Part shown: positions 3,329-62,811 of the stretch, one piece after another | How positions within the stretch are numbered: position 1 is the stretch's first letter | How the letters are laid out: each line of letters starts with the position of its first letter | The notes under the pieces: generated by a model | What the model saw: only the letters and a program-made list of their open reading frames with translations | Told to the model about the DNA's origin: nothing | The model's database searches: none | Origin: a virus | IMG/VR virus record: IMGVR_UViG_3300039308_000034 | Span: 1 to 64,000 of that record | DNA: 64,000 nucleotides | Reading direction: 5' to 3' (one strand) | Made by a program: the position numbers and the translations under genes

Positions 3329-3379
3329 AGGTCAATCTCCTTGCCCATTACCCAAACCCTAATATGCTTCGTTATGTCT

Positions 3380-3398
3380 AAGCCCTGAAGCAGGGCTT
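3380..3398. repeat. Intergenic hairpin
   Basis: AAGCCCTG and CAGGGCTT form a perfect 8-bp stem around a 3-base loop, between two minus-strand genes. No T-run follows on either strand, so it is a weak terminator candidate or an RNA-processing hairpin. Confidence 0.4.
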
Positions 3399-3416
3399 CC
3401 TGTAGCAATACATCAT

Positions 3417-4466: not shown

Positions 4467-5665
4467 CTAATCCCAAAAGGGCAGCAACGGTTGAACACTG
4501 CCGTCAGAAAACACACGATCGAACAACTCATTCCCAATCGGTTCCGAACCATCCCATTTGTCGGGATAGATATTGTTTTGCCAGTGCCAATAAATGCGCT
4601 GCAATTCTTCTTCACTAATAAGTGAGATTTTAGGCCTGCCTTGAATTGCAGCCAATCGATTAATCTCCTCTTGAATTGATAAAACCTGCTCTACGCCATA
4701 CTGTCGGGCTTCTATTGTGTATGGATCCAATGGGTTTTGGTTGCTGACCAAGGTGCCGTCTGCTTTGGTTTCTCCCCAGGCTGCCGATGACGATATTGTG
4801 GTTGTGCTATCTCACGATAAAGTGGCTTCAGTCGCTTCAAGGGAGCTAAATATGCCCACTCTGGTAGAGTTAAAATAAAGTTAAGTGCAGTTTCCTTTTG
4901 GGCAACATTGCAGCCAACACAGCCAGTTCTGGCATTCATCTCTACCGCTTCATCGCCACCATAAATCTTTGCGACTGTTGCCGCTGTCGGGAAACCGATC
5001 GCCGAAGCCTCAAACATTAGCCAATCAAATACGTTGCACACACGCCAATGGATGATTGGATGATGAATCGTAGCGATATTAATGGGGGTTTGCGCTTGTA
5101 AATAGCCTTGAGAACATTCTGTTCCATCCTTGCCACAGCTCAAGGCAATACGCTGATCTCTCGCTGCCGACTCCCCTAATCTCACACCAGTTAGGGAGAG
5201 AAATGGTTTTCTAAATTGCTGATGCTGCTCCTCTAAATGCCCAGTCATGGGGCGAACTTTGAGCAATCCTACACACCAGCGAAAACCTGGGATTGGAGCC
5301 GGGACGCCTCGCCCAAACATATAGACGAAAAAGCGATGATCTAGCTCTGGTAAAACAACTTTAGTATGAACCTCTCGCTGTTCCAGCTGCTCCATCAGTT
5401 CAATTGCGCTGAAATAGAGCGGTGGTAGCTCCATGCCAGTATCAGCAAAAATAATGTGCAAACTCTCAGGTTTAGGGATTTGACCTGTTTCGATTAGATG
5501 CACGATCAGCGTCACTACTGTTGTGCTGTCTTTTCCTCCAGAGAAGCTGATCGACCAATGCCGATATAGCTCACCCACTTCACATAAGTTCTCGATCGTT
5601 AGGTCAATCGCCTTGGGCAACTTCAATCGATCGCCCTCAAACAGGCTTAGATTCACGGCAGCCAT
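4467..5665 (-). pseudogene. PAPS reductase / DndC-like gene, frameshifted
   Basis: Paralogue of the gene at 1526-2725. The first 300 or so codons are in one frame with an intact SGGKDST PP-loop, a CSGKDG-like cysteine block and a CVGC pair. The last 94 codons, matching the intact paralogue's C-terminus through YPDKWDGSEP, are in another frame. The frames meet at a C-run at 4774-4777 (GGGG on the coding strand) where the intact copy implies five Gs, so one G is missing. Either a real inactivation, a phase-variable homopolymer, or a sequencing error. The ATP-pyrophosphatase core is upstream of the shift and could still be made. Confidence 0.8.
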
Positions 5666-5715
5666 CGATCACCCATCTCCAAATTTTGCGACATAAGATG
5701 ATATATTGCATTTAG

Positions 5716-5749
5716 TTTTACCTTAAGATATTACTATTAAGAAGTAAAA
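5716..5749. promoter_or_regulatory. 34-bp divergent-promoter element, copy 1
   Basis: TTTTACCTTAAG, ten variable bases, then TTAAGAAGTAAA: an imperfect inverted repeat between the divergent genes at 5665 and 5790. Copies of the same length lie at 31861 and 57436, each also between divergent genes. With copy 2, similarity extends about 30 bp further left (TTGCGAC, TAAGAT, ATATA blocks). A promoter or operator for an element-encoded regulator is likely. Confidence 0.6.
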
Positions 5750-5789: not shown

Positions 5790-5972
5790 ATGCCCACCGT
5801 TGATATTCGCTTCTGTCCCGATCCGGTTTGCCCTTGCTGCAACGAATTTATGGAACGTCGTTCCTTGTTTGAGCAAGAAGATGTAGCGCACATTCCAGAA
5901 GGCGATTGGATTTGTAGAGACTGTTGTGAGGCTTCCAAGTCGCAAACCTTACCACTAGCGGAAGATGTCTAA
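5790..5972 (+). CDS. Small zinc-ribbon protein
   Basis: A 60-residue protein with two cysteine knuckles, CPDPVCPCC near the N-terminus and CRDCC near residue 45, that could bind one zinc. Its end overlaps the start of the radical SAM gene by eight bases, so the two are probably translationally coupled and functionally linked. First gene of the rightward operon behind copy 1 of the 34-bp element. Confidence 0.6.
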   Translation: MPTVDIRFCPDPVCPCCNEFMERRSLFEQEDVAHIPEGDWICRDCCEASKSQTLPLAEDV

Positions 5973-16400: not shown

Positions 16401-19400
16401 TTCAGCACGGCTTCACCTTGGAGCAAATTCTGCAACATCAACGCATTCCGGTTTCCCTGCATGAGCAGATTAAGACCTGCCATAACGGAGAAATGATTCG
16501 ATATTTTGAAGTGTTGTGCGATCGATGCAGCTGCCAGCGTCCAGAGTTCGTTACCAAGCCCTCTGCAAAAGCCGATTCAGTTTGCCCGATGGGTAGTCCC
16601 AACTTCGAGGAGAAGCGACGGTTTGCTCGGTGGAAAGCAGTAGATGAGGCAATCGATCGAGGCTTTGTAGAACAGCAAGAAGACGGACTTGTAAAACTGA
16701 TTTGTCCCTACTGCACTACTGAAACACACCTCCCCACACTCCAGCCATTAACGGAGTCAAAACAAATGTCTCAATTAAACAACCAAGAGTTAAACATCCT
16801 TGAAACGGGAACACCCGCATGGGTTAAGGCAGCATTAGAAACTAGATCTTCGGATGATCTACCTCAAAACTCAGGTTCATCCTGTAGATCTTGTGAAGAT
16901 CTAGATCAGACCCTCCAGCCCCAAAAAGCTCTATTCACAAACCTCACATCAGCCTGGGTGAAGATTAACGCTAACCTGCTGAGAAAGCTTCAACAGGAAT
17001 TGATTGATCACCCTGAACGGGCAGTCCGGCAGCATGATCCCGATCGCTGGCATCTTTACTGGCGTGGTGAGTACTTGGCGCTGCACAATTACGGCGAAAC
17101 CGTTGAAATTATTGCTCATTACGATTGCTCGGTCACTTCGGTCGGCGGCACAATGACCCAATCGAAAGTTGAGCAGTTTATTCGAGACTGGCTAAAAGTT
17201 GACCCAACTGCCGAACCTGCTCATAACCTGATCGGGCAGTACGATATGACGACTCCCATTGGAGAGATTGCTATGCAGGTTGTCGCGGAGCGTAACGAGG
17301 AGGGACAACCGTTTCTGCTGTTTGAATTCTGCGGCATTCCCAAGCCCGTGAATTACCCTAACCCCAACACAGTGTTTATTCACCGAATGCCTGATGAGTT
17401 AGAAGGGATGGAGCCGACCTGCAACAGTCCATCAGGGTATGCCGAATTTTCAGCACGGCAGATGCTGGCAGAGTTCATGGCAACGCTCGACCAAGAGGTT
17501 GAAGAGACTCTCCCCATTCTCCACAAAACACTGAAGCAGTCAGGAAAGCAGAAGGAGCAACAGATCCAGGTTTGCCAGGAAATTCTTCGCCAAATCGAAG
17601 CCACAACTGTGGGTACATGGTGGGAGCCATTTGAAGCACTGCGACAGAAACCCTATTCAGCCGAGTTTATGCGATTGGTAGTTAAGGCAGCTACGCTGCG
17701 GAAACTAGAAAAGCTTGGAGTAGCAACTGCGATCGATCAACTCTTCAATGGGCAACGAGCATGGTATTCCGAGCAGAAAGACACCAGTGCACTGGCAACT
17801 AACCTTGAACTCAGCAATCCTCGTCCAGCGGTAATTAACGGAGCAGCAGGAATTGCGTATGAAGTGGCGATCGTTCAGCCAGGACACCCTCAGCTTCGTG
17901 GCAGAGTAATTGAAGCTGGAGAAGCTGAAAGTATAGTTGAAGTTCCAGAGTTTGATCAGCCTGTTAAAGTATTCAACCAGTTTCTGGCACCGCTCCTGAG
18001 TGAAAAGAGACGCAAGCAAATTGAACGACTCCGCAAAGCTGCTGCATCCAAAAAATTGACCGATCGCTGTGATCATCGCTCGATTTCTGCCGCCTTAGTA
18101 GTAATTGCAAATGCCCTCGAAACCAATACCTGCCCAGAACTGCTGCAAAAAGTCTCAGCCCTCAGCCACGTCAAAGCCCTCCTGCTAGGAGAACCGGCTA
18201 CTGCCGCCGCAAATAAGCCTGATCACACTGCAATTCAGTCAATGGGACTCGTCGATGTAAACGCTTTTGCCGCAGCCCGAAATGCCCTTGTTGAGTTAAT
18301 GAAGCAGTCTGAAACTGCCAGCCAAAGAACGCCGACTGATCGCAGCACCCAAATCTACACGCTCGATGGAGATGTCTTGATCGGTACTGTTGAAACAGCG
18401 AATGAGCTTCGATCACTTCTTGTTGAAAATCAATTAACGCTGGATGAAGTTTGGGGTGTTCCTGAAGAGGCGTATGCAGTTTTAGAGCAAGCAGTAGGAT
18501 CGATCGATTTTGGGAAACATCAGTCATCCTATGTTGTTAACGTCAAGTACACCAAAGACTACGACACTTACATTGGTCGAGGGAACCCCATCTATCGGCT
18601 ACCTCAGTCAAAATGGCACAATCCCTTCCAAATTGGCAAACATGGTAATCGTGTTGAGGTTCTTCAGAAATACGAAGCTCATTTATTAGGCAACGCTGAG
18701 TTAATGGCAGCCCTGCCGGAGTTATTTGGACAAACGATCGCCTGCTGGTGTGCTCAAAAAGGTGAACGGCTCACAGCAGACGACCCGCTCAAATGTCATG
18801 GACAAATCCTTCTCAAAGCTTTACGCGGTGACTATCAGCAACCCACACCACCCTCAATCCAATATGCGGAAATCAAAACACTTCAGCCGATGCATGGGCT
18901 TTGCTTCCTGGCAGCTGGAGCCAATCAATACTGCGATCGTCCTGCACCCGGAATTACCCTTCAAGTTGATGATTGGGTTCTAGTTCATGACGTAGCAGAA
19001 TCCGCCCGTCCGGGCATCGTCAGGGGCTTCATTCATGATGCAGATTATGAGGGACGCGACGGCAGTCCCAACAGCATCCTAGTGCAGCTAGAGGACGGCT
19101 CGCACATCATTCAACCTGCTGCCTGGATTGAACCCGCCGAACCAGGACGGGCGTATCTTGGCATTCGCAGTGGCGATCGGGTGCAAATTACTCAACGTCC
19201 TAGTCACATCGACCTAATTGAGTTTGAGCAATGGAGAGAGCGAATCGTTCAGCGAGTGAATTGGTTTAACGGCTTGTTTGCCGTACAGGTGCCTGGTCGC
19301 CCTGAACACAGCGTCCAGGACTACTCATTTAACCAAGTTCAACTTGTTTCACCAATTACTCTAGAAGTCCGTGAAACGGACTATAGCACTGAAATCTCAC

Positions 19401-27710: not shown

Positions 27711-28052
27711 CTACGCCGCCTCCTGATGTTCCCAATGCTGGAAGTGGGGTTTCGGCGTGTACCACCAATCTTGTTCCTCTGATGTAAGCGCCATCCAATG
27801 AAGCGTAGTGACTGTTTCTGGCTTCTGATATCCACCCAGCAGTATTACCGAATAACTGGGCGATTTAATACAGGCACGATCGGGTACAAACCTTTTACCG
27901 ATTCGGTTCCAGCTTGGCATCTTGCAGCGAAACTGAATTGAGCAGTGAGGGTAGGGTAATTCTTCTCGATCGTACAACCGACAAACAGGACCCACTATCC
28001 GATACACAAACGTTTTGCCTGGCGACAGGACAGTATCGCCCTCATTCAGCAC
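27711..28052 (-). CDS. Hypothetical protein
   Basis: About 113 residues if it starts at GTG 28052, which overlaps the NrdR-like stop by 11 bases; a longer start at 28130 would sit inside that gene. Contains [19 protein letters not shown] (a beta-barrel-like opening) and [13 protein letters not shown]. Its stop precedes the thymidylate synthase start by one base. No family recognised. Confidence 0.5.
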
Positions 28053-28524
28053 CTTGAATTTCCTCCAGAAGAGTTGCCATTTTTGCCGCTTCTGTGGACA
28101 GTTCTCGATATTTTTCAGCCAATCGGACAATTATGGTTTGAGACGAGATTAACTTCTCTAAAAAATCGCTTTTAACCTCATAAGTTGTGTATCGTTCCCC
28201 GCAAGCAAGACATTCGCGCCGTCGCCTCGTTGCTCCCCGCTGATCATGATTCCGCGATTCCAAAACTCGCGAGTCACGCCGTCCACATACCGGGCATTGA
28301 GTTCCGACTCGACTTTTCACAAGCTCTTGTGCCTGGCGACACAACTCCTGAATTTCAGGATCAACCAGACTAGGGCGAATTGATCGCAGCATGTTAATTG
28401 CTGCCTCACGGCTCGAATTCCAGGTCTCCCAAAACTTCAGTTCTTCATCCGAATCCCCCAAAATGTCGGCGAGCCGAATCGACTGGTAATAGGGTTTTAG
28501 TTTTGTTTCTATTTGTGCGACCAT
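28042..28524 (-). CDS. NrdR-like zinc-ribbon protein lacking the ATP-cone
   Basis: A 160-residue protein with a near-perfect NrdR zinc ribbon at residues 77-116: [20 protein letters not shown], cysteines 77, 80, 105 and 108. In bacterial NrdR the ribbon is N-terminal and is followed by an ATP-cone that senses dATP and represses nrd genes. Here about 75 helical residues precede the ribbon and only about 45 follow, with no ATP-cone. The gene sits directly downstream of the element's own RNR. It may bind NrdR boxes without nucleotide control, blocking or replacing the host repressor; this is inference. Confidence 0.7.
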
Positions 28525-31298: not shown

Positions 31299-31820
31299 TT
31301 AATCACGCTCGCGCGGCATCTGTACTGGAGAAAACACATCACAGCCGTCCTTCCCGTGACTGACTACCTTTAAGATGCGTTCTGGCTCAATCACATAAAT
31401 CCGCTCAACATGAGCAACTGAATAAAACCGTTCTGCAATCTGCTGAATATCTCTAGCTCCATTCGGTTCGTCAAAATCGGTTTCACTTTGGGCAAACAGA
31501 ACTACCACAGGAACCCTATCCTTCTCTTGAAAAACCTGAATGGTGCAAAACTCTTTAAGAAACGTTCGAGTTGAAGTGCTTAACTGGTCAATTGCATACC
31601 CAACCCAAAAATCAGATAGGTCAGCTGCATCTAGATAAGGGTCAGATTGCCACTCGATCGCTGCTTCAAGGTCTTGGGCTTCAATCTTCTGCAAGTCAGC
31701 ATCAGATGGCTCTTGCCAATCCGATTGCTTGACTGGTGACCAGGCATATTGAACAAACTGCACTGCCAACAACGCCGACAGCCACACTCCTTTCAGGCTG
31801 AAGGCAATTTTTATGAGCAT
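31299..31820 (-). CDS. Hypothetical protein with N-terminal hydrophobic segment
   Basis: A 173-residue protein. The first 25 residues (KIAFSLKGVWLSALLAVQFV) could form a signal anchor. The rest is acidic, with regular strands (VPVVVLFAQSE, VERIYVIEPERILKVV). First gene of the leftward operon behind copy 2 of the 34-bp element. No family recognised. Confidence 0.55.
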   Translation of the reverse strand: MLIKIAFSLKGVWLSALLAVQFVQYAWSPVKQSDWQEPSDADLQKIEAQDLEAAIEWQSDPYLDAADLSDFWVGYAIDQLSTSTRTFLKEFCTIQVFQEKDRVPVVVLFAQSETDFDEPNGARDIQQIAERFYSVAHVERIYVIEPERILKVVSHGKDGCDVFSPVQMPRERD

Positions 31821-31860
31821 TGATCAAGCCTCGTTGCGACTTAAGATAATATACAGCGTT

Positions 31861-31894
31861 TTTTACCTTAAGGTGTTAATAGCTTAATATAAAA
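31861..31894. promoter_or_regulatory. 34-bp divergent-promoter element, copy 2
   Basis: TTTTACCTTAAG, then GTGTTAATAG and CTTAATATAAAA, the same length and arrangement as the copies at 5716 and 57436, between the divergent genes at 31820 and 31919. A TTGCGAC-TTAAGATAATATA tract to its left matches the flank of copy 1, so the conserved part extends toward the leftward gene. Confidence 0.6.
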
Positions 31895-31918: not shown

Positions 31919-32500
31919 GTGACGAAACCAATCAAGTTGGAAAGCGACGAGGTGGCGAAGCTCAAGCTGAAGATCAGCCATCTAGAAGGGCAGATTGCGG
32001 AATTAAAGGTAAACGCTGGAATTACTGAGCCCAGAATTAAAAAACTTAAATTACAGCGCGACGATAAAGGAAACGATCGGATTGCCATTACTTACCAGTC
32101 CCTAACGCCTGATGGTGACTGGGACAATAGCTCTATCTCTCGTAAAGCCGCTGCTCGCCCCCAGTTTTATCATGCCCTTGAAGACCTGGCTCCTTACGTC
32201 TGTCTCATTTGTGAGCTGGACCCGGACTACAAAGAGGAAATGAGCATTATTGGGGTCAGCTTCTCGTATTCCGACGAAGATGTACCAGTCATGGGCGCAA
32301 CAATTACGGCTCAGAAGAAGTTGGAGACAGCAACCTCACCGCTCATCCTTAACACACCCCACAAGTCAGCCCAGCCATACGGTGGGGGTGAGGATGACTC
32401 CAATTGCTTTGACGAGAAAACTGTTCAGGCACTCAATCGAGTGAGTGAAGAATGTCAGCGATATTTGCGCGGCGAACGTGCCCAGCTGTCGTTTCTGTAA
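31919..32500 (+). CDS. Hypothetical phage structural-region protein
   Basis: A 193-residue protein starting at GTG 31919. The first 35 residues form a coiled-coil pattern (AKLKLKISHLEGQIAELKV). The middle has strands (RIAITYQSLTPDG, SIIGVSFSYS). It opens the rightward tail/lysis series. A phage structural or chaperone role is inferred from position only. Confidence 0.5.
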   Translation: MTKPIKLESDEVAKLKLKISHLEGQIAELKVNAGITEPRIKKLKLQRDDKGNDRIAITYQSLTPDGDWDNSSISRKAAARPQFYHALEDLAPYVCLICELDPDYKEEMSIIGVSFSYSDEDVPVMGATITAQKKLETATSPLILNTPHKSAQPYGGGEDDSNCFDEKTVQALNRVSEECQRYLRGERAQLSFL

Positions 32501-39230: not shown

Positions 39231-40053
39231 ACTGAACTTCCTGGGAAATTTCCTGAACTAACAGATCGGCGATCGGCTCAAAATCTTTGCAAGCTTCATG
39301 CCCTGGGCGATAGCAATAAAGCGGAGCCTGTCCTCGATTAGCAGCATTTTCAAACTCAGCGCTGTAACGAACGCCAGGGAAACAAGGAACGCCTTGACTC
39401 TCTAGTACCTCTGCGATTGATGCAGCAAAAGCTTTTTGATCTGCATTACTCGCAATCTTCATTGGCACACAGCCCAAAAGCTTTGGTACTGGCACAAGAT
39501 TCAGATCCTCCTCAACATTTCCAATCCACTGCAAGAGGGAATCAACTCCGGTCATTTTGACGCTCATTGGCAGTGGAATCAGGATATGTGTTGCGGTTGC
39601 CAAAGCCGTACAGCTCAACACATCTAGCGAAGCAGGTGAATCCAGGATGATCAGGTCATATTCTGGTGGATATTTCTTAAATGCCCTTTTCAAAACGGTT
39701 TCACGTCCTGTACGTGTTGGCAAATCCAGTGCGACTGAAACCATTACATCGCCACCTAAGCACACATTAAATTGTCCTTTCGGCGTTCCCCACTCTGGCG
39801 TTAAAGTGGGATACTTCCCATCAAAATCTCGATCGAACAGTGCAGCAGCCGTCTGACTCGGATCAATCTGAGGCTCTAGTCCACAGAACCGAGCTACAGA
39901 ACCGTTAGTATCTAAGTCGATAAACAGCACTCTCAACCCTAGCTGAGCGATGCGATAACCTAGATGCACTCCCAATGTTGTTTTTCCAACGCCGCCAGCA
40001 TTGGCAGTAATCCACAGAACTATCTGTTGTCGTGGCGTAATCAGCTTCTTCAT
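39223..40053 (-). CDS. parA: ParA-family partition ATPase
   Basis: A 276-residue ParA with a deviant Walker A motif (NAGGVGKTTLGVHLG) near residue 20, FIDLDTNGS, and a Walker B-like LIILDSPAS segment near residue 135. The short N-terminus without an HTH places it in the type Ib-like group, where ParB or another protein rather than ParA usually represses the operon. Transcription likely starts from the palindromic region at 40066-40123. Confidence 0.88.
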   Translation of the reverse strand: MKKLITPRQQIVLWITANAGGVGKTTLGVHLGYRIAQLGLRVLFIDLDTNGSVARFCGLEPQIDPSQTAAALFDRDFDGKYPTLTPEWGTPKGQFNVCLGGDVMVSVALDLPTRTGRETVLKRAFKKYPPEYDLIILDSPASLDVLSCTALATATHILIPLPMSVKMTGVDSLLQWIGNVEEDLNLVPVPKLLGCVPMKIASNADQKAFAASIAEVLESQGVPCFPGVRYSAEFENAANRGQAPLYCYRPGHEACKDFEPIADLLVQEISQEVQYA

Positions 40054-40065
40054 AACCCCTCCTAG

Positions 40066-40123
40066 TTTAGGAAAGTCGTTTTTCCTAAAATTCTATAAAA
40101 TTAGGAAAAACGATTTTCCTAAA
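40066..40123. promoter_or_regulatory. Twin palindromes upstream of parA (operator or centromere)
   Basis: Two copies of an inverted repeat, TTTAGGAAA to TTTCCTAAA, at 40066-40089 and 40101-40123, centres about 34 bp apart, between parA and the divergent gene at 40184. The arrangement fits a ParB/repressor operator or a plasmid-type centromere. Confidence 0.65.
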
Positions 40124-40183
40124 TGAGATATCGCTTAGAATAACGGCAAGATCGATCGCTTGCAACATTTTCTTCAAACTGAG

Positions 40184-56224: not shown

Positions 56225-56503
56225 CTAGCGATGGGAAGAACGTTGTTTGGTTTGAGCACGTTCCATTTCTTCGCGTTGCTGGCGGTAGAGATCACTGAGT
56301 TTTTTAACCCAGAAATCCCGTTGGCTTGGAGTCAGCTCATCGATCGCGGTGGCATCTTTGAACGGAGCTTGTTCTCCAACCGACAGCAGAAACGCTACTT
56401 CATTGAGGTATTCCTCATTCGGCGGATTCAGGAGGGACAAACAAAAATTGCCGAAGGTTCCCCCAGGCAACTGCCGCTTTCCATTCATGCCCACAACGAA
56501 CAC
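56225..56503 (-). CDS. Small protein overlapping the tail-chaperone-like gene
   Basis: Up to 92 residues. The reading frame overlaps the end of the upstream gene by 89 bases in the +1 frame. The unique part (NEVAFLLSVGEQAPF; LTPSQRDFWVKKLSDLYRQQ) is helical. Tail-assembly-chaperone pairs in phages often make a second, frameshift-extended product from such an overlap. At the upstream stop, GAA TGA GGA, skipping one base continues as GAG GAA TAC in this frame. The true start is not certain. Confidence 0.5.
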   Translation of the reverse strand: MFVVGMNGKRQLPGGTFGNFCLSLLNPPNEEYLNEVAFLLSVGEQAPFKDATAIDELTPSQRDFWVKKLSDLYRQQREEMERAQTKQRSSHR

Positions 56504-57344
56504 AGTTCATCTCAAGGCTCATGTCAGGAACGATTTGCAGCTTTTCCATTGCTTTCCGCAAAATTCCGAGGTCGGTTAGAGTCAGCTCATCATACAATTC
56601 GTCGCTGAAGACTTGCCCCCGAATATTCCCGTAGGTTGCTGAATCTGGAAGGGCAACAACCATCGCGTAGAGCATTTCAATATCTGTTACCGACTGCGGT
56701 TCAGAGAGCTTTGCCATGTGATGAAGTTTCATCGGCTGCATCAGAACACGCTTGATCGTTTCACCAGGAATATCAATTCCGTCCTGGAGAATCACTTCAA
56801 AGAGAGGCTTTGACTTCAAGTCGTGAACCAGGGGTACATCCAAACCGTCCAGCGTATGGTATCCACCTTTAGCAGGATTATCTTTATTCTTGGTACCACA
56901 AGCCTCACAGTCTGCTTCCATTGCAATCATTGTCCCCTGTGCAGCCTTACGAATGTGGAGCAACAGTGTCAGGACATCACCAAAACACATCCGCTCAAAG
57001 AAGAGGGATAGATTCAAGGACAGCTTTGAGGCAAGGTCTGTTACAGGGTAGCCGCCAATGGTCGCGACAATCTGAGGGAGAAACTGCCCGAGGATTTTGA
57101 CCGCCTTGCTCTTGTGCGTATTGATTAAAGTTGCCAGCAAGCGATCGTACTTAGTCTTATAGGGATGAAGCGTAAAGCTTTGCAGCCGCTCTCCTTCAAA
57201 GAAAATGCCAACTGGAAGAATTTGCTCCATCTCGGAGAATGCGATCGTATCAATGCGAAGCTCCCCAAGCGGCACTGCGTCGATCGTTGCCGTTGGGAGT
57301 TCGTCTGTTGCCTGGGGAGCAAAGCCACTATTTGATTTAGCCAT
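56415..57344 (-). CDS. Tail assembly chaperone / hub assembly-like protein
   Basis: A 309-residue protein (ATG 57344). The body is helical; residues about 148-160 hold a CEACGTKNKDNPAKG pair and the end holds NCVRCGHEW followed by FLF, two CxxC pairs that could share one zinc. Phage tail-assembly and baseplate-chaperone proteins often carry such a terminal zinc knuckle before an aromatic tail. It sits near the terminase small subunit, within a tail/packaging group, and is followed by an overlapping ORF. Family assignment is tentative. Confidence 0.5.
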   Translation of the reverse strand: MAKSNSGFAPQATDELPTATIDAVPLGELRIDTIAFSEMEQILPVGIFFEGERLQSFTLHPYKTKYDRLLATLINTHKSKAVKILGQFLPQIVATIGGYPVTDLASKLSLNLSLFFERMCFGDVLTLLLHIRKAAQGTMIAMEADCEACGTKNKDNPAKGGYHTLDGLDVPLVHDLKSKPLFEVILQDGIDIPGETIKRVLMQPMKLHHMAKLSEPQSVTDIEMLYAMVVALPDSATYGNIRGQVFSDELYDELTLTDLGILRKAMEKLQIVPDMSLEMNCVRCGHEWKAAVAWGNLRQFLFVPPESAE

Positions 57345-57435: not shown

Positions 57436-57469
57436 TTTTACCTTAAGGGGTAAGCCTTAAGAAGTAAAT
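57436..57469. promoter_or_regulatory. 34-bp divergent-promoter element, copy 3
   Basis: TTTTACCTTAAG, ten bases, TTAAGAAGTAAA, agreeing with copy 1 at nearly every arm position. It lies upstream of the minus gene at 57344. The next plus-strand gene starts at 57801, with the 57-residue minus ORF between. Confidence 0.6.
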
Positions 57470-57573: not shown

Positions 57574-57621
57574 AAAACTTTACAGCAGATTAAAGAATTC
57601 TTTAATCTGCTGTAAAGTTTT
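57574..57621. terminator. 48-bp perfect palindrome centred on GAATTC
   Basis: Every base from 57574 to 57621 pairs about the GAATTC at 57595-57600. It begins with AAAACTTTAC and ends with GTAAAGTTTT, giving T-tails on both strands, as in a bidirectional terminator. It doubles as the last codons and stop of the 57-residue minus ORF. Confidence 0.65.
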
Positions 57622-57753
57622 TCCCTTCGTAAAACCCGCAATTAAGAGAACTACAAAGTCAGTAGGGCTTGATTTTCCGTATTTTTTCGCAATCATCAAA
57701 TAGTTAATTTGCTTATTGTTTTTCTTAGTAAGTGCATCTGCGGAGTTTTTCAT
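57580..57753 (-). CDS. Small HTH-like protein (57 residues)
   Basis: An ORF of 57 codons from ATG 57753. The product is basic at the front (TKKNNKQINYLMIAKKYGK) and ends in a possible HTH (LIAGFTKGKTLQQIKEFFNL). The last twelve codons and the stop form the left half of the 48-bp palindrome. Too short for family recognition; the frame, codon content and filled gap support it. Confidence 0.5.
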   Translation of the reverse strand: MKNSADALTKKNNKQINYLMIAKKYGKSSPTDFVVLLIAGFTKGKTLQQIKEFFNLL

Positions 57754-57800: not shown

Positions 57801-58265
57801 ATGCAAGCCAGAACCATCGACACAGCTTTTAACCTCGATCGCCCCGAACTGTATCACGAAAAAGCAATATTGCTTGATGCAATCACCGGAGACGACCCTT
57901 TTATCATTGTTCGGCAAGATAATAATCATGTCATTCAAGCAGGGCAGATTGAAGAAGTGTTTGGGATTCCGGCAACTTATTGGGTCGGTCAAGATCTAAC
58001 TAGGTTTCACAGCAGCGACAATGGTAAGCCCTTTCCTAGTTTTGGCAGGATGAGCTACTTGAACAGTGCAGGCAGACATCATTTATCTGATTTTGAGTTA
58101 ATTACCAGAGGTGTGCAATTCAACACCCAAACTCAAGCGATCACGCCAAGTGAAAGGTCTTGGCAGATCGTGTGCGATATTTGGTTTTTAAATTTCTACT
58201 TCGGATTTCCTTGTCGATTGGTTGTGATTAAAAATGCTGTTCCAATGCCTTACACACGCAAATAA
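57801..58265 (+). CDS. Hypothetical protein, paralogue A
   Basis: A 154-residue protein. From residue 18 it resembles the C-terminal half of the next gene: DDPFIIVRQDNNHVIQAG against NSFAVVRDEDNCVVWAG, and IWFLNFYFGFPCRL against IFFLKEYFGIPSRL. The ligand-pocket-like strands recall a PAS-type fold but no motif proves it. Tandem duplication is likely. Confidence 0.55.
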   Translation: MQARTIDTAFNLDRPELYHEKAILLDAITGDDPFIIVRQDNNHVIQAGQIEEVFGIPATYWVGQDLTRFHSSDNGKPFPSFGRMSYLNSAGRHHLSDFELITRGVQFNTQTQAITPSERSWQIVCDIWFLNFYFGFPCRLVVIKNAVPMPYTRK

Positions 58266-59347: not shown

Positions 59348-60517
59348 TTAGACGTTAGCAAGAGTCGTATCCAAACTCACACTCATAGAGATTAGCTGGT
59401 TGACATCAAAAGGCAAAATCTGTGAAAGTTGACCAAGCCATAACGTTTTAATTGGCTTTCCTGCTAGGGCTGCCTCAAGATCTTTGACAGGGACGGCACG
59501 GCTCAGATTTAGTTCTTCTTTGAAAAGCCGTGAAAACTTTTTCACATCAGCCGAATCGGTTGGGTCAAGACCTCGCTTCTTAAATTCTTCCCACAAAGCT
59601 TTTGCTAGGGGAGTTTTGAATTCTGGCGTCTTAGGTTGGGGCTTAAACTGCAATTGATAGAGTTCTTTGCCTGTCTGCTTGAACAAAAGAGCTAGATCCT
59701 GAAGCTGCTCAACCTCAAGAACATCTCCCCGGAGGATTGCCTCGAAGACTTTGATTGGGATACCTTTCCCTTCCGGCGATTTTGTTAAATCTCGGAATTT
59801 CTTGATATCCATTCGGTTCTCTGGGCTAAGGCGGCGCAAAGCAAATTCACGCCTGAGCAGGGTAGCCACAGGAGTTACCCCCTCCGTTACTTGATATTCC
59901 TGGAGCTTTGCAAGCTCTAAAGGAGAATACAAACCGCCATCTTCATCTTTTAGAAACATGGCAAACTGCTCCAACCAATGAGCATCCACTGGGGAACCGT
60001 TTAAGGCTTGCTTCAGCACTTTCAAAGGGATTGCAGCTCCTTCCTCTTGAAGGATTTGCATTGTGAACTGGCGCTGTTGAGTTTCTTCCATGGGATCAAA
60101 CCCTCGCTCCTCAATCTCTCGGTAGAGAACAGCTTGCAAATTCAATTCTGGCTCTGCCGTCCGCTCAGCTGATTTAGTTTTCCGCTGTGTTGCATAAAGC
60201 GATGCCATCGCCTCTCGTGACAAGTCTCCAGATTTAATCTGAGCCGATCGCTCCACCAAAAGAGCAGCAACTCGTTCCCAGAAAAAACTAACTGCTTCAG
60301 GGCAGATGAAGTGGGTCGATAGCAAAATTGCTTCTAAATTCGCCAGTCGGGAATCTGAGGTCCCAAGCTTGATATCTGAAAGTTTTCCGTTTGTGAGACC
60401 CGAAGCCAAATAACTGCGGCAGCCTGCCACAATATCCAAGCCGATCAAAGAAAACTCTTCTAGAGTTTCCTCTAATGCAAGGGAAAAGATTGTTCGTTGG
60501 CGGGTAGTTGTGCTCAT
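59348..60517 (-). CDS. Protein with three tandem copies of a repeated module
   Basis: A 389-residue protein (ATG 60517; a TTG at 60526 is less likely). After an N-terminal helical domain, about 80-residue modules repeat three times: YREIEERGFDPMEE/IPLKVLKQALNG, REFALRRLSPENR/IPIKVFEAILRG, and EEFKKRGLDPTDS/VPVKDLEAALAG. A fourth copy is the next gene. The module resembles a degenerate HTH. It is divergent from the HTH regulator at 60679 across a palindromic operator, as in phage repressor pairs, which suggests a regulatory role. Confidence 0.6.
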   Translation of the reverse strand: MSTTTRQRTIFSLALEETLEEFSLIGLDIVAGCRSYLASGLTNGKLSDIKLGTSDSRLANLEAILLSTHFICPEAVSFFWERVAALLVERSAQIKSGDLSREAMASLYATQRKTKSAERTAEPELNLQAVLYREIEERGFDPMEETQQRQFTMQILQEEGAAIPLKVLKQALNGSPVDAHWLEQFAMFLKDEDGGLYSPLELAKLQEYQVTEGVTPVATLLRREFALRRLSPENRMDIKKFRDLTKSPEGKGIPIKVFEAILRGDVLEVEQLQDLALLFKQTGKELYQLQFKPQPKTPEFKTPLAKALWEEFKKRGLDPTDSADVKKFSRLFKEELNLSRAVPVKDLEAALAGKPIKTLWLGQLSQILPFDVNQLISMSVSLDTTLANV

Positions 60518-60623
60518 CAAACGCAAAATAAATCCTATCTTATGCCGATTTTACCGAATCTAGAGCCTTCAGGATTATTTTTTAGATAAACGTCGAAAAA
60601 TTTAATCCCCACTGTAGCGCGGA

Positions 60624-60648
60624 GTAACATTTTACAGGCTAATGTTAC
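60624..60648. promoter_or_regulatory. Perfect inverted repeat between divergent regulators
   Basis: GTAACATT and AATGTTAC, 8 bp each with a 9-base spacer, in the 161-bp gap between the module protein and the HTH gene. It ends 30 bases before the GTG start at 60679 and fits a repressor operator. Confidence 0.6.
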
Positions 60649-60678
60649 TATTTTAAGGAAAAGAAGAAGCATAAACTT

Positions 60679-60951
60679 GTGTTGCGCTATCAAGATCTCC
60701 GCTGGGGAAGCATTTCACTGTTGGCAGAGTTAACTGGCTATTATCCTAGCCAATTTTCCGCATGGATTAACCAACCAGATGCCCAAATGTCGATCGCAAC
60801 GTTAGACCACATTAGCGAGATGACAGGGGTGCCATTTGACGAGGTGAGACGTGCTTTTCGAGAGCGCAGACAACAGGCTCAGCTTGAACAAAAGGTAAAC
60901 CGGAGGCTGCGTAACGCTTTAAAAAAAACAACTCGAAAGGTAGCTGTATAG
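60679..60951 (+). CDS. Small HTH regulator upstream of the initiator
   Basis: A 90-residue protein starting at GTG 60679. Residues about 8-55 form an HTH (ISLLAELTGYYPSQFSAWIN, TLDHISEMTGVPFDEVRRAF) like Cro/CI or plasmid copy regulators; a basic helix (LEQKVNRRLRNALKKTTRK) ends the protein. It precedes the initiator gene and follows an 8-bp inverted repeat, so it may control replication or the switch with the divergent gene. Confidence 0.65.
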   Translation: MLRYQDLRWGSISLLAELTGYYPSQFSAWINQPDAQMSIATLDHISEMTGVPFDEVRRAFRERRQQAQLEQKVNRRLRNALKKTTRKVAV

Positions 60952-61114: not shown

Positions 61115-62811
61115 CGGCTAGTCATCTAAACATTGTGCCACTCCAAAGAAAACGTACTCCCGACATTCCAACTGCTTTTGAGATGGGATTGCTAGGCATA
61201 GGTACTGTTGCCTTTCGGATTTTCTACGATTTGAGAGAACTCGCCAAGCCTATGGTCGATCGCCAGGGGCAAGAACGGCTAGGGATAAAAATTGGCTTGG
61301 CTGCAATTGCTAAACGCTGTATTCTGCCCGATCGCCCGAATGCCTCTGCTGCTGTTCTCCGGCGCGCAGTTTTTCATGGCATTGCTGAGATTGAAGCCTG
61401 TGGTTTAATCCACATCGAAAAATCAACTACTGCCTCTAAAGAAGCAAATTGCTATTTTTTCTCAGAACGAACTGAGTGGTGCAAACGTCCAGAGAACTTT
61501 GCTTCCAGCAATATCCGCCAGGGGCGACCCAAGGGGATAACCAAGAAGAAAACTAGATCTTCAGATGATCTACTGCAAAATTCGAGCTTGCCCCCTAGAT
61601 CACCCGAAGATCTAGTGCAAATTAACGATTTAGAAGCTAGATCTTCGGATGATCTAGTCGTGCAAAATGGACGAAACCCGCATTCTTCCGTTGAGAGTCT
61701 ACAAAAAATCTCTGAAGCTAGATCTTCGGATGATCACTTTAAATATGTATATGTAGATCAGGATGTAGAAGTAACTAAAGATCTTGATTTAAACCAGAGT
61801 ATTGAAGAAAGAAATACTTTATTGCGTAGACTCAGCGCGATCGACGCCTCTACTGGCTCTATACCAGTTGAACTACCTTCAAACGTTGAGTTGCATTTCA
61901 ACCCTGAATTAATTTCACCTGTTCAGCCCAATACTGTAGAGCCACAAAGCCGATCGGCTCAGACTCTTTCTGGCGGGACGAATTCTACGAAGGTGAAAAA
62001 AACAAAACGACAGATAGACAAGGAGAAATATCTCCTACCGGATACAGGGGTCAATAAGGTCGCCGCACTGCCCAATGTTTCGCCGGAAGGGGTTGCTATT
62101 TTTGAAGCCTGGTTTCCCCAGTGGAAGGAGCGCTATCGATCGGTGCGAAACCGCTATGCGGATCAGACAATGGCAGCGATTCACTTCGCTCGGATGGTTC
62201 AGATCCAATTGGAGGAGGGGGAGTTTGATTCCGAAGCGGAACTCTATCAAGCGTTCTGGGAGCGGTGTTTGGTCTGGAACAAGCAGACGGATGACAAAAT
62301 TCTACGGGGCGATCGGTGTATCGAGATGCCTGACGTAGATGGGTTTTTATTGGGCAGGCATGGCGGTGAACCCTACTGGAAGCCCTGTATCCCCGAATCA
62401 GAGCCGCCAATCCCGCATGCTGAGCGATTTACTGCCGTTTGGCAGCAAGCTTACGCCGAGTACCTTTCCTTGCAGCAGGGAGGCTGTGATGTGTCGCCCG
62501 GTTCCCATGATGAGGCAAAACGAGTTTGGGCAATGCTCTACGTCGATGAACCACCTTGTGACATTGAAGCATTGATCAAGTTTTATTTTCAGCACAAACG
62601 TGAGCGGCTGGGCCGGAGCGGCAATATTGCAATTAGCAAATTCAGTAATTTGATTCGCCCTGAAAGTCTGAAGTATGTGCGGGATGTTATGCATCAAAAG
62701 CAACCAAGTGAGTCCAACGAGGCAAGACCCAAAACAGAATCTGAGCTGATGTTAGAAGCCGCATTGGAGGAACTGCGAAAACAGCCGATCGGAGGTGTAA
62801 CTTATGGTTAA
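61108..62811 (+). CDS. Replication initiator with internal iterons (lambda O-like)
   Basis: A 567-residue protein; ATG 61108 follows GGGAGGCGGAG. Residues about 20-125 look like a winged-helix DNA-binding domain (FRIFYDLRELAK; GLAAIAKRCILPDR; AEIEACGLIHIEKS). Residues about 150-215 are encoded by 14-codon repeats (RSSDDLLQNSSLPP type) that carry the 19-bp palindromes. The C-terminal half (RNRYADQTMAAIHFARMVQI) is not recognised. It overlaps dnaB by eight bases. Origin repeats inside the initiator gene next to a helicase recall lambda O with its four iterons. Confidence 0.7.
   Translation: MVAASHLNIVPLQRKRTPDIPTAFEMGLLGIGTVAFRIFYDLRELAKPMVDRQGQERLGIKIGLAAIAKRCILPDRPNASAAVLRRAVFHGIAEIEACGLIHIEKSTTASKEANCYFFSERTEWCKRPENFASSNIRQGRPKGITKKKTRSSDDLLQNSSLPPRSPEDLVQINDLEARSSDDLVVQNGRNPHSSVESLQKISEARSSDDHFKYVYVDQDVEVTKDLDLNQSIEERNTLLRRLSAIDASTGSIPVELPSNVELHFNPELISPVQPNTVEPQSRSAQTLSGGTNSTKVKKTKRQIDKEKYLLPDTGVNKVAALPNVSPEGVAIFEAWFPQWKERYRSVRNRYADQTMAAIHFARMVQIQLEEGEFDSEAELYQAFWERCLVWNKQTDDKILRGDRCIEMPDVDGFLLGRHGGEPYWKPCIPESEPPIPHAERFTAVWQQAYAEYLSLQQGGCDVSPGSHDEAKRVWAMLYVDEPPCDIEALIKFYFQHKRERLGRSGNIAISKFSNLIRPESLKYVRDVMHQKQPSESNEARPKTESELMLEAALEELRKQPIGGVTYG
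61554..61737. repeat. Iteron array, candidate replication origin
   Basis: Palindromes TAGATC-N7-GATCTA at 61554, 61596 and 61638 (all 42 bp apart, four helical turns), a degenerate copy near 61680 and a half-matching copy at 61719-61737. The 42-bp period equals 14 codons, so spacing is kept through the protein repeat. Confidence 0.75.
61738..61835. other. AT-rich tract beside the iterons (candidate unwinding element)
   Basis: A stretch rich in A and T (TTTAAATATGTATATG; AGAAAGAAATACTTTATTG) directly after the repeat array and inside the initiator coding sequence, placed as the unwinding element is beside the iterons in lambda ori. Confidence 0.5.

Follow-up and report, generated by a model that had tools for sequence, protein, structure and literature searches.

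Candidate operators in a likely cyanobacterial phage-plasmid: a dispersed 34-bp element with a copy beside putative repressor genes

What is the role of a 34-bp element that recurs at promoter positions of a virus genome, and which protein might recognize it? The question is raised by the 80,751-bp virus record IMGVR_UViG_3300039308_000034, of which positions 1-64000, referred to below as the window, are the whole stretch of DNA analyzed here (64,000 nucleotides). To our knowledge, there is little work on how temperate cyanobacterial phages or phage-plasmids hold their lytic genes silent, and a full-text search of the literature on cyanophage repressors and operators returned only a general review.

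The record looks like a trimmed provirus or phage-plasmid, not a complete genome, because its first codon is ATG, its final codon is TAA and an end repeat is absent. Even spacing of three copies of the element on a circle was considered and dropped, given that the record appears to be trimmed. ParA, ParB, a sigma factor, a DNA clamp, a class II ribonucleotide reductase (RNR), a small terminase, a DnaB-like helicase and a very long tape-measure-like protein are encoded on the record. Of its proteins, at least 15 have matches on the circular 223-kb plasmid pC052_F of Nostoc sp. C052 (NZ_CP040278), including a capsid-like protein (48% identical), the tape measure, RNR, ParA and ParB, and the record therefore most likely belongs to a group of cyanobacterial phage-plasmids.

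The sequence-only reading had described three elements of equal length that share one arm, and in this it was correct: TTTTACCTTAAG is found exactly at 5716, 31861 and 57436, with no further occurrence in the 80,751-bp record, and a 34-bp frame fits each of the three copies. The copies and their surroundings are as follows.

5716-5749, plus strand: copy 1, TTTTACCTTAAGATATTACTATTAAGAAGTAAAA, flanked by the leftward PAPS-reductase-like gene (4712-5665) and by a rightward unit that begins at 5790
31861-31894, plus strand: copy 2, TTTTACCTTAAGGTGTTAATAGCTTAATATAAAA, the most symmetric copy, between 31299-31820 (minus strand), which leads into RNR, and 31919-32500 (plus strand)
57436-57469, plus strand: copy 3, TTTTACCTTAAGGGGTAAGCCTTAAGAAGTAAAT, upstream of the hub-like gene 56415-57344, which runs leftward
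57576-57619, bidirectional: 20-pair stem with a T run, an intrinsic terminator lying right of copy 3

TTTTACCTTAAG is the sole non-coding 12-mer with three occurrences in the record, and a triple of any non-coding 12-mer appeared in only 5 of 1000 order-1 simulations of the non-coding DNA. Over the 34 bp, copies 1 and 3 are identical at 26 positions, copies 1 and 2 at 24, and copies 2 and 3 at 21. A lone 26/34 pair is not decisive evidence of relatedness because it was reached in one of eight null simulations; the contiguous 12-mer together with the common arm is the stronger evidence. The right arm TTAAGAAGTAAA is common to copies 1 and 3, which thus have 24 fixed bases in the arrangement TTTTACCTTAAG-N9-TTAAGAAGTAAA, whereas the right arm of copy 2 differs. 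The second arm, previously taken to be complementary to the first, pairs with it only in part: there are 11, 13 and 8 of 17 possible dyad pairs over the full 34 bp in copies 1, 2 and 3, respectively (7, 10 and 6 of 12 within the arms). Among all 34-mers of the record, these values place copy 1 in the top 0.08%, copy 2 in the top 0.005% and copy 3 in the top 4%; by this measure the symmetry of copies 1 and 2 is rare, whereas that of copy 3 is not. The orientation of TTTTACCTTAAG with respect to the leftward gene is identical in all three copies. A location between divergent genes, which had been proposed for each element, applies to copies 1 and 2; in the case of copy 3 it is doubtful because a possible 57-aa minus-strand ORF (57580-57753) and the bidirectional terminator lie to its right; the terminator separates the element from the first rightward gene, which starts at 57801, and copy 3 is probably not within a divergent gene pair. 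The gene to the left of copy 3, formerly described as a tail chaperone, resembles more, albeit weakly, a baseplate-hub protein. Rfam gave no match.

A symmetric matrix built from copies 1-3 was run across the whole record, and the best five matches in the 80.7 kb are all located in non-coding DNA, which accounts for 6.7% of the record. The exact motif is confined to the three original positions in the record, and the matrix adds a fourth copy and a probable fifth.

60630-60663, minus strand: copy 4, minus-strand reading CTTTTCCTTAAAATAGTAACATTAGCCTGTAAAA, between 59348-60526 (minus strand) and the helix-turn-helix (HTH) gene 60679-60951 (plus strand)
74236-74269 of the record, outside the window: probable copy 5, weaker, between a leftward ORF and the capsid operon

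Copy 4 is identical to copy 1 at 24 of 34 positions (minus strand), and its score of 20.1 lies above 40 whole-record nulls, with p = 0.001 when the non-coding DNA was shuffled 1000 times. For copy 5, p = 0.039 with the three-copy matrix and p = 0.003 with the four-copy matrix. Both copies were selected for symmetry, so that their own symmetry is no independent evidence. Across the five copies, the invariant columns are TTTTA at positions 1-5, T16, A18 and AAA at 31-33. Further candidates at 64885, 58413 and 67470 were not accepted, their scores being within the null. The four sites in the window and the probable fifth are all non-coding and upstream of genes, and they precede at least four, probably five, transcription units. 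Among the units concerned are the PAPS-reductase and radical-SAM units at copy 1, two units at copy 2 (RNR-to-sigma and one that contains an endolysin-like gene), the hub-like and terminase unit at copy 3, regulator and replication genes at copy 4 and, probably, the capsid unit at copy 5. The regulon that had been suggested to link the PAPS-reductase, RNR and tail-chaperone transcripts is supported as such and is wider than suggested, extending to the regulator/replication region and, probably, to the capsid operon.

Copy 4 is of particular relevance for the identity of the binding protein because it sits between two candidate regulator genes.

59348-60526, minus strand: 392-aa protein, candidate immunity repressor, with three tandem repeats of about 88 residues after an N-terminal helical part
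60679-60951, plus strand: 90-aa HTH protein of the Cro/CI type, a candidate for a Cro-like regulator or, alternatively, for the repressor

The repeats of the 392-aa protein match one another with E = 5e-11 and 2e-7, and the repeat, modeled from its three copies, is predicted to be a five-helix domain (pLDDT 92). When this model was compared with viral models, the top-ranked one was annotated as a phage immunity repressor (probability 0.92, TM 0.52, E = 0.35), and the fifth-ranked one carried this annotation, too; among PDB structures, CI of phage TP901-1 was the highest-probability match, a weak one (probability 0.16, E > 3). The predicted fold thus appears to resemble the HTH domains of phage immunity repressors, with all matches below E-value significance (E > 0.3), which is suggestive but not proof. 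The 392-aa protein has no Pfam match, no recognized C-terminal dimerization domain and no relatives in the collections searched, viral and genome contigs included. The 90-aa protein matches Pfam HTH_26 with E = 5e-4 and 20.7 bits, under the cut-off of 22, and PHROG 2328 ('transcriptional repressor') with E = 0.0087. A profile comparison between the repeat and the 90-aa protein found nothing.

On balance, we lean towards the 34-bp elements being dispersed operators of the phage-plasmid's own immunity (lysogeny) repressor, located at the main lytic units. This interpretation is favored because the sites combine dyad symmetry with a non-coding location at promoters, and another copy adjoins candidate repressor genes; because an exact 12-mer occurs three times and the best matrix matches all fall within the small non-coding share of the record; because -35/-10-like hexamers overlap the element in both directions, while parAB, the plasmid-maintenance unit, has other boxes; and because copy 4 adjoins both an HTH gene and the gene of a three-repeat protein with immunity-repressor-like fold matches. 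The protein that binds the dyad would most likely be the three-repeat product or, alternatively, the 90-aa HTH product. A binder with several HTH domains might cover the putative -35 and -10 hexamers inside and beside the dyad and, because these hexamers overlap the element both ways, would hinder RNA polymerase. In this manner, silencing could extend to the metabolic, replication, tail and capsid units while ParAB keeps the element as a plasmid. The promoter of the presumed regulator gene itself bears a site, and the position of copy 4 between the two regulator genes would provide for autoregulation and a cI/cro-like switch. It is the prophage context that points to repression rather than activation. 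The simplest reading is that one phage regulator acts at most of the lytic units and controls its own gene at copy 4.

Several observations count against operators. No copy precedes the tape-measure unit (from 40160), which would have to be controlled in another way. There are only four or five sites, their right arms vary and the TTAA is displaced by 2 bp between copies. The fold matches all have E > 0.3, and the match of the 90-aa protein is under the Pfam cut-off. Furthermore, the element is present in no relative, so that there is no phylogenetic footprint. Lysogeny itself is deduced from ParAB and from the plasmid relative.

A more specific version of the operator interpretation, which we consider doubtful, is that the 34-bp operator is bound by an immunity repressor with three HTH domains, belonging to a sequence family so far seen only here, which silences nearly every transcription unit and makes three contacts per site (TTTTA, the central TnA and TAAAA, about 14-15 bp apart). 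If this is the case, such a repressor would represent a third architecture beside the dimeric CI and the two-domain cluster A repressors. More generally, should the three-repeat protein be the repressor, long operators would be read in a new way.

The hexamers around the element also bear on another proposal, namely that the arms are promoter hexamers, possibly bidirectional, and form a promoter class that the SigB/F/G-like sigma factor of the phage (23253-24434) recognizes. The hexamers would be CTTAAG-N17-TAAAAT rightward and TTAAGG-N17-TAtcat leftward. The left flanks of copies 1 and 2 share TTGCGAC (5686-5692 and 31834-31840), TAAGAT and ATATA, as noted previously, but the common block is offset, its distance from the element being 3 bp shorter in copy 2 than in copy 1.

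5686-5709, minus strand: left flank of copy 1, in common with copy 2, with a possible leftward -10 TATCAT 17 bp after TTAAGG; leader start
31834-31854, minus strand: left flank of copy 2, in common with copy 1, with a possible leftward -10 TATCTT

The sigma factor gene is present, TTTTACCTTAAG points the same way with respect to the leftward gene each time, and the 17-bp spacing to TA-containing hexamers is constant in copies 1-3 in both directions. The putative -10 hexamers themselves, however, are inconstant (TATCAT, TATCTT and TAAATA leftward, and TAAAAT, TAAAAT and TAAATC rightward, in copies 1, 2 and 3, respectively), and rightward of copy 3 a terminator comes before any gene. The -10 motifs of SigF/FliA-type promoters are GC-rich, unlike TAAAAT, and neither two-fold symmetry nor a fourth copy beside repressor-like genes would be expected of such promoters, so that we regard this class as unlikely. 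Both a regulon operator and a sigma-specific promoter class had been put forward from the letters alone; symmetry, promoter positions and copy 4 argue for the former, and the link to the sigma factor gained no positive support.

Distinctly unlikely, too, are sites for an activator or metabolic regulator, such as one acting together with the NrdR-like zinc-ribbon protein (28042-28524), that would tie nucleotide and sulfur metabolism to infection. Copies 1 and 2 do precede the PAPS-reductase-like and RNR units, and the zinc-ribbon protein (PF22811, E = 5e-15) is encoded close to the class II RNR. This protein has no ATP-cone match, however, and the elements are not paired 16-bp palindromes, as NrdR boxes are; moreover, copies 3-5 precede structural and regulator genes.

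We attach little probability to the elements having arisen by duplication of AT-rich promoter DNA, or being similar by chance, with no protein dedicated to binding them. Such an origin is favored by the flanks that copies 1 and 2 share, by the presence of AAGCCTCGTTG in the left leader of both copies 2 and 3, and by the occurrence of a 26/34 pair in the null simulations; the triple 12-mer, the dyad symmetry and the significant fourth copy at the regulator genes speak against it. Promoter duplication accounts for some of the flank similarity between copies 1 and 2, but leaves copies 3 and 4 unexplained.

Finally, dispersed parS partition sites of ParAB, as in phage N15, are most improbable and were rejected: ParA and ParB are encoded and the sites are dispersed inverted repeats, but the elements sit at promoters and lack the TTTCCTAAA boxes that are clustered at the parAB promoter at 40.1 kb (three of the window's four) and are presumably parAB's own control. 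In the divergent region between parA and a rightward unit (40053-40160), four alternating boxes of the TTTAGGAAA/TTTCCTAAA type surround a long palindrome at 40078 and are likely to be a par operator or parS.

As regards known systems, the operators proposed here are closest to two types of phage immunity. Cluster A mycobacteriophages (L5, TipsytheTRex) have dispersed repressor sites and multi-domain repressors, and their operators/stoperators are asymmetric 13-bp sites, present in 20-30 copies per genome, mostly outside promoters and oriented with transcription (PMC9283540, PMC6550527). The present record is similar in that several sites are dispersed over a phage genome, the candidate repressor would have more than one DNA-binding domain and site specificity appears to differ between relatives. 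Unlike stoperators, the elements are 34 bp long, symmetric, located at promoters and number 4-5 per record, and accordingly the set is not filed there. With the lambda-type cI/cro immunity region (OR/OL), the record shares a divergent regulator pair with an operator in between (copy 4), the same type of site at other promoters and a Cro/CI-type HTH protein. In contrast to lambda, there is no tripartite operator, 4-5 scattered units are involved instead of two, and the candidate repressor has three repeats and lacks a recognized C-terminal dimerization domain. The site set probably adds a new case to the phage operators, which are known as a general kind of regulation, and the architecture of the repressor may be new. 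A defined set of sites and two candidate regulators make lytic silencing in cyanobacterial phages directly testable.

The element was also sought in relatives of the record. It is absent from Aphanizomenon phage CL131 and from pC052_F, which shares endolysin-like and hub-like genes with the record in addition to the capsid-like, tape measure, RNR and ParA/ParB genes, but has no detected relative of the three-repeat protein; a search of the pC052_F promoters for an analogous common site gave nothing clear. Seven PAPS-reductase loci were found in the comparative search. Nine IMG/VR contigs with RNR relatives have little in common with the record beyond RNR and lack the element. No relatives of the hub-like, capsid, 31919 and three-repeat proteins were found in the viral or genome contigs searched. 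A strict motif search of viral contigs returned no matches; a relaxed one returned three, in AT-rich contigs without a protein match to this phage, and these were judged to be chance. Absence of the element from relatives is expected if immunity specificities diverge, and also leaves no comparative proof.

Several other repeated features were observed in the course of this analysis. Two paralogous PAPS-reductase-like proteins (1526-2725 and 4712-5665) are encoded in one leftward gene cluster. Unrelated long ORFs for a 2033-aa and a 580-aa protein contain a common repeat with TAGATCTTCGGATGATC (window 16838-16904 and 61549-61735), which encodes RSSDDL-like motifs. In IMGVR_UViG_3300033978_000724, ACATACAAAGGACAA occurs about 10 times in non-coding DNA and may be a conserved promoter or a leader with a ribosome-binding site. 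A much larger set of dispersed sites is present in the phage contig IMGVR_UViG_3300038558_000079, which contains 28 non-coding copies of AACATGTCGGAAGC (e.g., 3363-3415 and 71234-71320), often paired about 40 bp apart and alternating in orientation.
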